This document shows, one piece after another, positions 7,753-56,771 of a DNA stretch of 64,000 nt. A model generated the notes under the pieces. That model did not search any database and was not told the origin of the DNA. It worked only from the letters and a program-made list of their open reading frames with translations. The position numbers were made by a program, and so were the translations under genes. Position 1 is the stretch's first letter. Each line of letters starts with the position of its first letter. The DNA is from Rhodobacter sp. Har01 (lineage in GTDB: Bacteria; Pseudomonadota; Alphaproteobacteria; Rhodobacterales; Rhodobacteraceae): positions 1-64,000 of the forward strand of contig NZ_JAJCTD010000001.1 in assembly GCF_020564565.1 (NCBI RefSeq), written 5' to 3'.

Positions 7753-7764
7753 ACCCCGGGCAGT

Positions 7765-7812
7765 CGATTTCCGAAGCCGGAAATCGTGCCCGGAATTCGA
7801 AGTCGAATTCCG
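7765..7812. repeat. Twin-hairpin intergenic repeat, copy 1
   Basis: Two perfect 9-bp inverted repeats in tandem: CGATTTCCG-4-CGGAAATCG, a TGCC linker, then CGGAATTCG-4-CGAATTCCG. It starts 12 bases after the preceding stop codon. The same element recurs at 11059, 44980 and 56716. It could form two RNA hairpins at the 3' end of the upstream mRNA. Confidence 0.9.
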
Positions 7813-7910
7813 GCGCCGGGGCTGGCGTCAGGTCGTGCGCGGGGCTTGCGCCGCGCCGGAGCGCATCCTAAAGGCAAGCGCAGATGCGCCGGATTGCCGG
7901 AGGGGATGCC

Positions 7911-11019: not shown

Positions 11020-11058
11020 GGGCCGGGAGTTTGGCGGCGCGCGTGGTGCGCCGCAAGA

Positions 11059-11106
11059 CGATTTCCGACTTCGGAAATCGTGCACGGAATTCGACTTCGA
11101 ATTCCG
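11059..11106. repeat. Twin-hairpin intergenic repeat, copy 2
   Basis: The same element as at 7765: CGATTTCCG-4-CGGAAATCG, TGCA, CGGAATTCG-4-CGAATTCCG. It lies 22 bases past the stop of the minus-strand DUF1992 gene and 39 bases upstream of the hisC start. Read along those genes it is in the reverse orientation relative to copy 1. The loop bases (ACTT) differ from copy 1 (AAGC) while the stems are unchanged. Confidence 0.9.
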
Positions 11107-11128
11107 GCGCCCGTTCCGCCAACCGATG

Positions 11129-28169: not shown

Positions 28170-28184
28170 GTTCTGCCCGTGTTC
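28170..28184. promoter_or_regulatory. SOS box GTTC-N7-GTTC upstream of lexA
   Basis: GTTCTGCCCGTGTTC, a direct-repeat SOS box of the type known for alphaproteobacterial LexA, located 34 bases upstream of the lexA start and next to the AT-rich TTAACACAATG tract. It implies LexA represses its own gene until DNA damage. Confidence 0.9.
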
Positions 28185-44966: not shown

Positions 44967-44979
44967 TGCGCCGGCCAGG

Positions 44980-45027
44980 CGATTTCCGAAGCCGGAAATC
45001 GTGCACGGAATTCGAAGCCGAATTCCG
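44980..45027. repeat. Twin-hairpin intergenic repeat, copy 3
   Basis: CGATTTCCG-AAGC-CGGAAATCG, TGCA, CGGAATTCG-AAGC-CGAATTCCG. It has the same orientation relative to the upstream gene as copy 1 and lies inside the dcw operon between murC and the DUF2484 genes. Confidence 0.9.
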
Positions 45028-45057
45028 TGCCCCGGCCCGGTCGGAGCACCCCGCAGG

Positions 45058-54125: not shown

Positions 54126-54965
54126 ATGGCGGGCAAGACTTCGGGGTGGCAGCTTGCGGCGGCGCTGGCGCTTGCGGCGGCGCTGTCGGCCTGCGGATCG
54201 CGCTCCGAGGACGTTTCGCTTGACAGCTACTCGGCCGAAGAACTGTACGGCCAGGGCGAACTGGCGCTGGAAACCGGCAGACGCCCCGAGGAATCGCTGC
54301 GCTACTTCCAGGAAATCGAGCGGCTCTATCCCTATACCGAATATTCCAAGCGCGCGCTCATCATGCAGGCCTTCGTCCTGCACAAGTCGAAGAAATACGA
54401 AGAGGCCCGCGGTGCCGCGCAACGCTTTCTCGACTTCTACCCCGATGACGAAGACGCGGCCTATGCGCAATACCTGATGGCGCTGTCCTATTACGACCAG
54501 ATCGACGATGTCGGCCGCGACCAGGGCCTGACCTTCCAGGCCTTGCAGTCGATGCGCGAACTGATCGAGAAATACCCCGACAGCGAATATGCCGCCTCGG
54601 CGATCCTGAAGTTCGACCTTGCCTTCGACCATCTCGCCGCGAAGGAAATGGAGATCGGGCGCTACTACCTCAAGCGCCGGCACTATTCCGCGGCGCTGAA
54701 CCGGTTCCGCACCGTGGTGCAGGATTTCCAGACCACCGCCCACACGGCCGAGGCGCTGCACCGGCTGGTGGAATGCTACCTCGCGCTTGGGTTCGAGGAC
54801 GAGGCGCAGACCGCCGCGGCGATCCTGGGCTACAACTACCAGTCCTCGCCGTTCTACCAGGACAGCTTCAACCTCCTCAAGGGCAGGGGCCTGGCGCCCG
54901 AAGCCAAGGGCGACAACTGGCTGACCAAGATCTATCGCCAGATGATCCGTGGCGAATGGTTGTGA
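54126..54965 (+). CDS. bamD: Outer membrane assembly lipoprotein BamD
   Basis: A 279-residue lipoprotein. The signal peptide is Ala/Leu-rich, with lipobox LSAC and Cys23. Five TPR-like helical pairs follow (YGQGELALETGRRPEESLRY, SKRALIMQAFVLHKSKKYEE, AYAQYLMALSYYDQIDDVGR, YLKRRHYSAALNRFRTVVQD, HTAEALHRLVECYLALGF). BamD works with BamA to insert beta-barrel proteins in the outer membrane. Start ATG 54126 after GGATAGG. The gene is followed at once by a set of three palindromes before recN. Confidence 0.95.
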   Translation: MAGKTSGWQLAAALALAAALSACGSRSEDVSLDSYSAEELYGQGELALETGRRPEESLRYFQEIERLYPYTEYSKRALIMQAFVLHKSKKYEEARGAAQRFLDFYPDDEDAAYAQYLMALSYYDQIDDVGRDQGLTFQALQSMRELIEKYPDSEYAASAILKFDLAFDHLAAKEMEIGRYYLKRRHYSAALNRFRTVVQDFQTTAHTAEALHRLVECYLALGFEDEAQTAAAILGYNYQSSPFYQDSFNLLKGRGLAPEAKGDNWLTKIYRQMIRGEWL

Positions 54966-54970
54966 CCCCC

Positions 54971-55048
54971 GTGCGTGCTTGCACGCACCTCACTGCCTGG
55001 GTGCGTGCTTGCACGCACCTCGCTGCTTGGGTGCGTGCAGGCACGCAC
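54971..55048. repeat. Three 18-bp palindromes at exact 30-bp period between bamD and recN
   Basis: Perfect palindromes GTGCGTGCTTGCACGCAC at 54971-54988 and 55001-55018, and a variant GTGCGTGCAGGCACGCAC at 55031-55048 with changed centre only. The 12-base spacers (CTCACTGCCTGG, CTCGCTGCTTGG) are also similar. Each unit can form a strong 8-bp hairpin. The array occupies nearly the whole 99-base gap before recN and is open in the recN reading frame. Confidence 0.95.
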
Positions 55049-55064
55049 CCGATCGCTTGAACCG

Positions 55065-56708
55065 ATGCTCCGCGCCCTGGACATCCGCGATGTGCTGATC
55101 ATCGACCGGCTGGGCATCGAGCTTGGCCCGGGCCTCAACGTGCTGACCGGCGAAACCGGCGCCGGCAAGTCGATCCTGCTGGATGCGCTGGGCATGGTGC
55201 TGGGCTGGAAGGGCCGGGCCGATGTGGTCCGCGCCGGGGCCGAGCGGGCCGAGGTCACCGCCGCCTTCGACCTGCCGCCGGGCCATCCGGCCGAACCGAT
55301 CCTGGCCGAAGCCGGCATCGAGGCCACGGGCGAGTTGATCCTGCGCCGCGTCGCCCATGCCGATGGCCGCCGCCAGGCCTTCGCCAACGATCGCCGGGTC
55401 AGTGGCGAGGTCCTGCGCGACCTGTCGGAAACCCTGGTCGAACTGCATGGCCAGCATGATGACCGCGGCCTTCTCAACCCGCGCGGCCACCGTGCCTTGC
55501 TGGACAGCTTCGCCGGGCTGGACCTTGCCCCCCTGCGCGCCCTCTGGGCCGCCCAGCGGCAGGCCCGCGACGCGCTGTTCCAGGCCGAGGCGCAGATCGC
55601 CCGCGCCCGCACCGAAGAGGACTACCTGCGCCACGCCGTGGCCGAACTGGCCAAGCTCAACCCGCAGCCCGGCGAGGAGGCCGACCTTGACGCCCGCCGC
55701 CGCCTGATGCAGGGCGCCGCCCGCATCCGCGACGACGTCGCCCGCGCGCTGGCCGCCCTGTCCGACGACGGAGCCGAAGGCCGCATGCGCGACGCCCAGC
55801 GCTGGCTGGACGGCGTGGCCGACCGCGCCGAGGGCCGGCTGGACGAACCGCTTGCCGCGCTGTCGCGCGCCAGCATCGAACTGGCCGAGGCGCAGGCCGG
55901 GGTCGAATCCTGCCTTGAGGCGCTGGACTTCAACCCGTCAGACCTGGAAACCACCGAAGAGCGCCTGTTCGCCATCCGGGCGCTGGCCCGCAAGCACTCG
56001 GTCGCCCCCGATGCGCTGGCCGACCATGCCGCAACGCTGGCAGCGCGGCTTGCGGCGCTGGACGCGGGCGAGGCGGGGTTGTCCCGGTTGTCCCGTGCGG
56101 TGACTGCCGCCGAGGCGGCCTATGCCGATGAAGCGCGCCGCCTGCGCGCCTTGCGGCGGGCGGCGGCGGCCCGGCTGGATGCCGCCATGGCCGGAGAACT
56201 GGCGCCCCTCAAGATGGAGCGGGCGCTTTTCGCCACCCGGATGGAGGAGGCCGAGCCCGGCCCTGACGGCATGGATGCCGTGACCTTCACGGTGACCACC
56301 AACCCCGGCGCGCCGCCGGGGGCGTTGAACCGCATCGCCAGCGGCGGCGAACTCAGCCGCTTTCTGCTGGCGTTGAAGGTCTGCCTCACCGGCCAGTCGC
56401 GTGGGCTGACGCTGATCTTCGACGAAATCGACCGCGGCGTCGGCGGGGCCACCGCCGATGCCGTGGGCCGTCGGCTGCAGGCCCTTGCGGCGGGCGCGCA
56501 GATTCTGGTGGTGACGCATTCGCCGCAGGTGGCGGCCCTGGGCGCGCATCACTGGCGGGTCGAAAAGACCGTGACCGGTGAGGTGACCCGCTCCAGCGTC
56601 ACCGCGCTGGACGCCACCGCCCGGGTCGAGGAAATCGCCCGCATGCTGGCCGGCGATACCGTCACCGATGCCGCCCGCGCCGCTGCCCGCGCCCTGCTGG
56701 TGGCCTGA
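55065..56708 (+). CDS. recN: DNA repair protein RecN
   Basis: A 547-residue SMC-like ATPase. The Walker A loop is TGETGAGKSILLDAL (28-42), a coiled-coil middle (about 150-360) follows, then ASGGELSRFLLAL (signature) and LTLIFDEIDRGVGG (Walker B). RecN acts in double-strand-break repair. ATG 55065 fits the conserved start MLRALDIRDVLIIDRL; there is no good ribosome-binding site, only the preceding palindrome array. No GTTC-N7-GTTC SOS box is visible upstream. Confidence 0.96.
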   Translation: MLRALDIRDVLIIDRLGIELGPGLNVLTGETGAGKSILLDALGMVLGWKGRADVVRAGAERAEVTAAFDLPPGHPAEPILAEAGIEATGELILRRVAHADGRRQAFANDRRVSGEVLRDLSETLVELHGQHDDRGLLNPRGHRALLDSFAGLDLAPLRALWAAQRQARDALFQAEAQIARARTEEDYLRHAVAELAKLNPQPGEEADLDARRRLMQGAARIRDDVARALAALSDDGAEGRMRDAQRWLDGVADRAEGRLDEPLAALSRASIELAEAQAGVESCLEALDFNPSDLETTEERLFAIRALARKHSVAPDALADHAATLAARLAALDAGEAGLSRLSRAVTAAEAAYADEARRLRALRRAAAARLDAAMAGELAPLKMERALFATRMEEAEPGPDGMDAVTFTVTTNPGAPPGALNRIASGGELSRFLLALKVCLTGQSRGLTLIFDEIDRGVGGATADAVGRRLQALAAGAQILVVTHSPQVAALGAHHWRVEKTVTGEVTRSSVTALDATARVEEIARMLAGDTVTDAARAAARALLVA

Positions 56709-56715
56709 AAGAAAC

Positions 56716-56771
56716 CGGAATTCGCGCGAATTCCGTGCACGATTTCCGTGCGGAAATCGGTTTTTCTCTTT
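56716..56771 (+). terminator. Twin-hairpin repeat, copy 4, acting as recN terminator
   Basis: CGGAATTCG-CG-CGAATTCCG, TGCA, CGATTTCCG-TG-CGGAAATCG, then G and TTTTTCTCTTTC. The orientation is reversed relative to copies 1 and 3, and the loops are two bases rather than four. It starts 7 bases past the recN stop; the following T-run makes it a convincing intrinsic terminator. Confidence 0.9.

Follow-up and report, generated by a model that had tools for sequence, protein, structure and literature searches.

The 99-nt gap between bamD and recN of Rhodobacter sp. Har01 holds three hairpin-forming palindromes in tandem, and we give about an even chance to the explanation, drawn from the sequence and from analogy with measured systems, that they form an intercistronic stem-loop on a bamD-recN mRNA, which would act there as an mRNA boundary. 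The array is real and specific to this locus; comparison of the relatives' sequences indicates that the structure is conserved in many Rhodobacteraceae, though it is not universal in the family. Elements of this kind are known already; the array adds one more example, unusual in its tandem triplication.

The window, that is, the whole stretch of 64,000 nucleotides that was analysed, carries ftsZ, lpxC, bamD and recN on the + strand (Pfam), gene identities having been assigned from Pfam domains together with the ORF list. Around the array it is laid out as follows:

54126..54965, + strand: bamD, encoding a YfiO-type outer membrane lipoprotein (Pfam PF13525 YfiO, E = 8e-45; ORF list; start codon approximate), with its TGA stop at 54963-54965
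54966..55064, + strand: bamD-recN intercistronic gap, 99 nt
54971..55060, + strand: tandem array of three 30-bp units (TRF), with identities to unit 1 of 100%, 93% and 73%
54971..54988, + strand: hairpin 1, GTGCGTGC-TT-GCACGCAC, 5 nt past the bamD stop
54999..55020, + strand: hairpin 2, with the core of hairpin 1 and a stem lengthened by one G-C and one G-U pair
55029..55050, + strand: hairpin 3, with a 10-bp stem and an AG centre, 14 nt ahead of the recN ATG
55065..56708, + strand: recN (Pfam SMC_N/RecN), with its ATG at 55065 and without a Shine-Dalgarno sequence

The units start at 54971, 55001 and 55031, and each of them opens with GTGCGTGC-NN-GCACGCAC. Their palindromic cores (54971-54988, 55001-55018 and 55031-55048) follow one another in steps of exactly 30 nt, just as a sequence-only reading of this DNA had reported; the array also lies in the gap, as described there, without filling it (the array core occupies 78 of the 99 nt). 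The cores are not the perfect 18-bp palindromes of that description: in each copy, 8-bp arms flank a 2-nt centre (TT, TT and AG) lacking self-complementarity. One or two extra pairs lengthen the arms of copies 2 and 3, and copy 3 reaches 10 bp. Copies 1 and 2 differ solely at two linker positions; copies 2 and 3 differ at none of the 16 stem bases, at both centre bases and at six of the 12 linker positions (stem versus linker, Fisher p = 0.0025). As the sequence-only reading stated, the palindromes are identical except for the centre of the third; the linkers differ as well. The third copy does not keep its symmetry through changes, there being no compensatory change among its 16 unchanged stem bases. 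As an alternative to selection, exchange between the palindromes could have caused the identity of the stems.

The array region folded with a z-score of -6.6. Single hairpins 1, 2 and 3 have predicted energies of -9.9, -14.8 and -16.5 kcal/mol respectively, and hairpins 2 and 3 are jointly predicted to form a 22-bp helix of -46.9 kcal/mol, which is a possible candidate substrate of RNase III. In this predicted helix the two centres, AG in copy 3 and TT in copy 2, lie opposite each other and pair; this is no evidence of selection, because a random centre would pair in about one case in four.

A palindrome scattered through the genome as a simple repeat would, according to the sequence-only reading, count against its own interpretation. 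A search for GTGCGTGC-N2-GCACGCAC gave only three matches in the 3.9-Mb genome, all of them in the bamD-recN gap (reversed control pattern, 0), and among the TRF tandem repeats of a 400-kb genome sample, inspected by eye, an inverted-repeat unit was found only here. The palindrome was absent from all 13 congeners searched, whose gaps carry sequences of their own. BLAST of the gap against plasmids returned no match, and an Rfam scan of the region yielded sub-threshold microRNA matches only, which we took as chance. A literature search on recN with bamD, operon and Rhodobacter found no paper, and neither recN nor bamD is mentioned in the main text of a PNPase/RNase study of R. sphaeroides (PMC7866481).

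The relatives came from genome collections with one genome per species. In loci from about 200 Rhodobacteraceae genomes, bamD lies directly upstream of recN on the same strand in nearly all cases, and the comparison set held 199 distinct bamD-recN gaps, which fall into two classes, short (< 30 nt) and 30-47 nt. No hairpin was seen in any of the 61 short gaps. Most of the 110 gaps of 30-47 nt carry just one hairpin: 71 have a stem of at least 6 bp (shuffle mean 29.7, maximum 44 in 100 rounds), and 48 have a stem of at least 7 bp (mean 10.6, maximum 20), although these shuffle-based counts overstate independence because the sequences share ancestry. The excess is smaller yet present in a set with one genome per genus (stem of at least 7 bp in 15/55, against 5.5 expected and a maximum of 12). 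Since approximately one-third of the 30-47-nt gaps lack a clear hairpin, as do all the short ones, the hairpin is dispensable in some lineages. At the lpxC-bamD junction, used as a control, the 45 nt past lpxC showed no excess of hairpins (5/78 versus 5.5 expected), whereas the 45 nt past bamD in the same loci had them in 31/56 cases versus 4.2 expected.

The comparison of this gap in relatives, which the sequence-only reading had proposed as a check, revealed a conserved hairpin position and conserved pairing; the palindrome sequence varies among the relatives, and none of them showed the 30-bp period. The hairpin starts 4 nt past the bamD stop in 30 of the 71 gaps and 4-6 nt past it in 42 (about 14% in shuffles), and it mostly ends 12-16 nt ahead of the recN start. 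Its sequence varies widely from one relative to another (GGTGCGC..GCGCACC, GGCGGGG..CCCCGCC, GATGGGC..GCCCATC and others). Covariation was followed in 33 gaps of exactly 36 nt, chosen regardless of pairing and read in a fixed 7-bp register. Here, 61.9% of the pairs were standard, compared with 48.1% when the 3' bases were re-dealt (maximum 55.8% in 2000 rounds) and with 42-52% at slid registers, and double-sided changes occurred at all 7 of the 7 stem pairs.

The nearest relative, whose RecN is 88% identical, has a 39-nt gap with the single hairpin GGGGCGTGCCGGCACGCTTC. By position and flanking sequence, it is hairpin 3 of the array that corresponds most closely to the one hairpin carried by relatives. 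Because the outer spacings of the array (5 nt and 14 nt) are the usual ones, it has the appearance of one ancestral hairpin triplicated internally; among the gaps compared, such a triplication with a 30-bp period, apparently a tandem duplication, was seen in Rhodobacter sp. Har01 only. The gap of Fertoeibacter niger contains two copies of the array palindrome in opposite orientation, as a BIME-like pair (L070 2922-2984), and in that of one MAG (L037) a hairpin is present with its 3' arm (GGCCCATCC) repeated in tandem behind it. As these two gaps are enlarged as well, gap enlargement occurred more than once.

The array shares the hallmarks of a protective intercistronic stem-loop: a stable stem-loop next to the upstream stop and between co-directional genes, absence of a U-tract, and evolutionary conservation of the structure. 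Its position 5 nt past the bamD stop seems to fit a role at the bamD 3' end, or as a boundary, at least as well as control of recN. If it acts as an mRNA boundary, cleavage by RNase E, or termination, within the weakly translated recN portion of the mRNA would expose a 3' end from which 3'-to-5' exonucleases (PNPase) would proceed until they halt at the hairpins; the bamD mRNA would stay stable and the recN mRNA would decay. The hairpin would, in addition, stop ribosomes finishing bamD from feeding recN, and additional hairpin copies would strengthen the block. Two earlier remarks on recN proved right: no Shine-Dalgarno sequence lies ahead of the gene, and there is no visible SOS box, the single LexA-type match (GTTC-N7-GTTC) in the window being at 28170, far from recN. 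Across the relatives, a Shine-Dalgarno sequence precedes recN in 5/48 hairpin gaps versus 23/61 short gaps (p = 0.0017, kinship ignored).

Such a boundary would have known counterparts. Among E. coli gene pairs whose upstream gene is stabilized, 26 of 34 bore a stable 3'-end hairpin without a U-tract, and differentially decaying operons have fewer ribosomes on the unstable gene (PMC5927463). Structures of the malE-malF type in such operons (PMC5927463) resemble the bamD-recN case in having a U-tract-free hairpin at the 3' boundary of the upstream gene and a downstream gene that looks poorly translated. From the same bacterial family, Rhodobacter capsulatus offers the intercistronic puf stem-loop (Chen et al. 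1988, cited in PMC5927463), a GC-rich hairpin between co-transcribed genes; the title of that paper calls it an mRNA decay terminator that puf mRNA needs for its stability. It belongs to another operon, and going by this citation its function was measured, whereas we infer that of the bamD-recN hairpin, which is usually single and short and is tripled in Rhodobacter sp. Har01. Many RNA 3' ends of R. sphaeroides are removed by PNPase, an enzyme that structure can halt (PMC7866481). Furthermore, translational coupling tends to be weaker where structure directly follows the stop codon (PMC12548453).

The main null is that the array is a functionless REP relic, i.e. that a GTAG-type REP landed after bamD, or was inherited there, lost its tag and gave rise to tandem copies by replication slippage, with no selected function at the junction. 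We regard this as possible, if somewhat unlikely. The array palindrome is dispersed in 44 of 395 genomes of the family, with up to 23 copies (reversed control, 0) and in other genera usually in the form GTAGGGTGCGTGC..GCACGCACC, and CTAC, which is the tag read from the opposite strand, follows the hairpin in 11 of 48 hairpin gaps. A REP origin is plausible because the core is a dispersed GTAG-class repeat in the family and because CTAC follows these hairpins. Moreover, this genome has a tagged REP copy behind a different gene, and GTAG REPs supply TAG stop codons and cluster in tandem (PMC3733652). The array has the imperfect palindromes of 20-40 bp that are expected of REPs, and its core, GGTGCGTGC..GCACGCACC, is that of the GTAG-tagged repeat dispersed in other genera of the family; it differs from GTAG-class REPs and BIMEs (PMC3733652) in having no GTAG tag, no dispersal and no transposase found. 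Neither GTAG nor CTAC was present in the flanks of any of the three copies, and the exact core exists in three copies only (relaxed pattern, 18 matches versus 8 in the control). The REP-associated Y1 tyrosine transposase (PF01797) had no match in this genome or in the 13 congeners, the control being matched in E. coli. Some REP-bearing genomes need no REP transposase, which makes the transposase a weak criterion. Against a functionless relic stands the fixed 4-nt offset together with paired changes over many genera, which would be unexpected from random insertion and drift. A lone GTAG-tagged REP in this genome, GTAGGGTGCGTGATCGCACGCACC, is located at C4:273401-273424 (L153 1497-1520), and its TAG seems to provide the stop codon for a gene resembling pyrG by eye.

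Translational coupling is the main functional rival of an mRNA boundary. As a translational device, the hairpin would either gate recN initiation or take up, by folding, the surplus length that separates the recN start from the bamD stop, and recN translation would depend on bamD translation. Once the hairpin is subtracted, the gap has a median length of 18 nt, not far from that of gaps without a hairpin (21.5 nt), the recN Shine-Dalgarno is weak where a hairpin is present, and a ribosome terminating at the bamD stop would presumably cover the base of the hairpin. This rival is weakened, however, by the loss of coupling at about 20 nt, a spacing of ~20 nt having almost abolished termination-reinitiation in six E. 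coli and Haloferax pairs that were tested (PMC10666635), and also by the negative correlation of post-stop structure with coupling noted above (PMC12548453). In addition, the linkers outside the three hairpins total about 37 nt in Rhodobacter sp. Har01. On balance, we consider a translational device unlikely.

Near-symmetric sites at a regular 30-bp step might also seat a DNA-binding protein as a lattice along one helix face, repressing or activating recN, but this is very improbable: 30 bp corresponds to about 2.9 helical turns, not to exactly three turns as first stated, and the bamD-recN gap yielded no sigma-70-like promoter on which such a lattice could act. The sequence-only reading had left the choice between such a lattice and a row of RNA hairpins controlling recN. 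The hairpins gain from a position that is kept in relatives of differing sequence and from the paired changes; the lattice loses, as the palindrome is absent from the 13 congeners and its sequence changes freely, being unconserved even within the genus, whereas the pairing is conserved. Selection on RNA structure is likewise favoured, and a sequence-reading lattice disfavoured, because the outer spacings were kept and the stems are identical. An intrinsic terminator or attenuator between bamD and recN is scarcely credible, since the hairpins, though strong and GC-rich, have no U-tract, no T-run lying behind any copy and a terminator scan reporting none of them; Rho-dependent termination with subsequent trimming is possible and merges with the boundary explanation.

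A REP origin and a present function are compatible, and a more speculative proposal, which we think quite unlikely as a whole, combines the two. A REP-type hairpin would have been captured early in the Rhodobacteraceae and would now be selectively maintained for its structure and its precise distance from the bamD stop, dividing an essential envelope gene from a DNA-repair gene; triplication would then have created the 22-bp helix, by which RNase III cleavage would replace the exonuclease block on the mRNA, with copy number as the tuning factor. If the boundary explanation is right, the bamD-recN junction would be a family-wide case at a single locus in which the hairpin sequence turns over while position and pairing persist. 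The natural variants with zero, one, two and three copies would make it testable how hairpin dose relates to the ratio of two co-transcribed genes, and would open a test of the recruitment of selfish palindromes as mRNA boundaries. A further suggestion would then be that these bacteria adjust their RecN level through the mRNA and not through an SOS operator at the locus.

A hairpin shortly after a stop codon is not an unusual kind of feature in this genome, because post-stop hairpins are generally enriched in the 400-kb sample (45/371 versus 17 expected). The excess in this sample is strongest at convergent gene pairs (17/56 versus 2.6). Other repeated palindromes are found soon after stops in the same 400-kb sample of contig C1, namely CCGGGGGCCAGCCCCCGG-ACCCCCGGGGTA, TGTCCCATGATGGGACA and CGAATTTTCGACGAAAATTCG; the genes that bear them include those ending near C1 142208, 189398, 151219 and 154529, outside the window. 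A dispersed twin palindrome, CGATTTCCG..CGGAAATCG-TGCAC-GGAATTCG..CGAATTCC, has 69 genome copies at ≤ 2 mismatches (reversed control, 0), and copies in the window lie at 7756-7825, 11050-11119, 44971-45040 and 56716-56759. T-runs flank the copy just 3' of recN on either strand, and it has the look of a bidirectional terminator.
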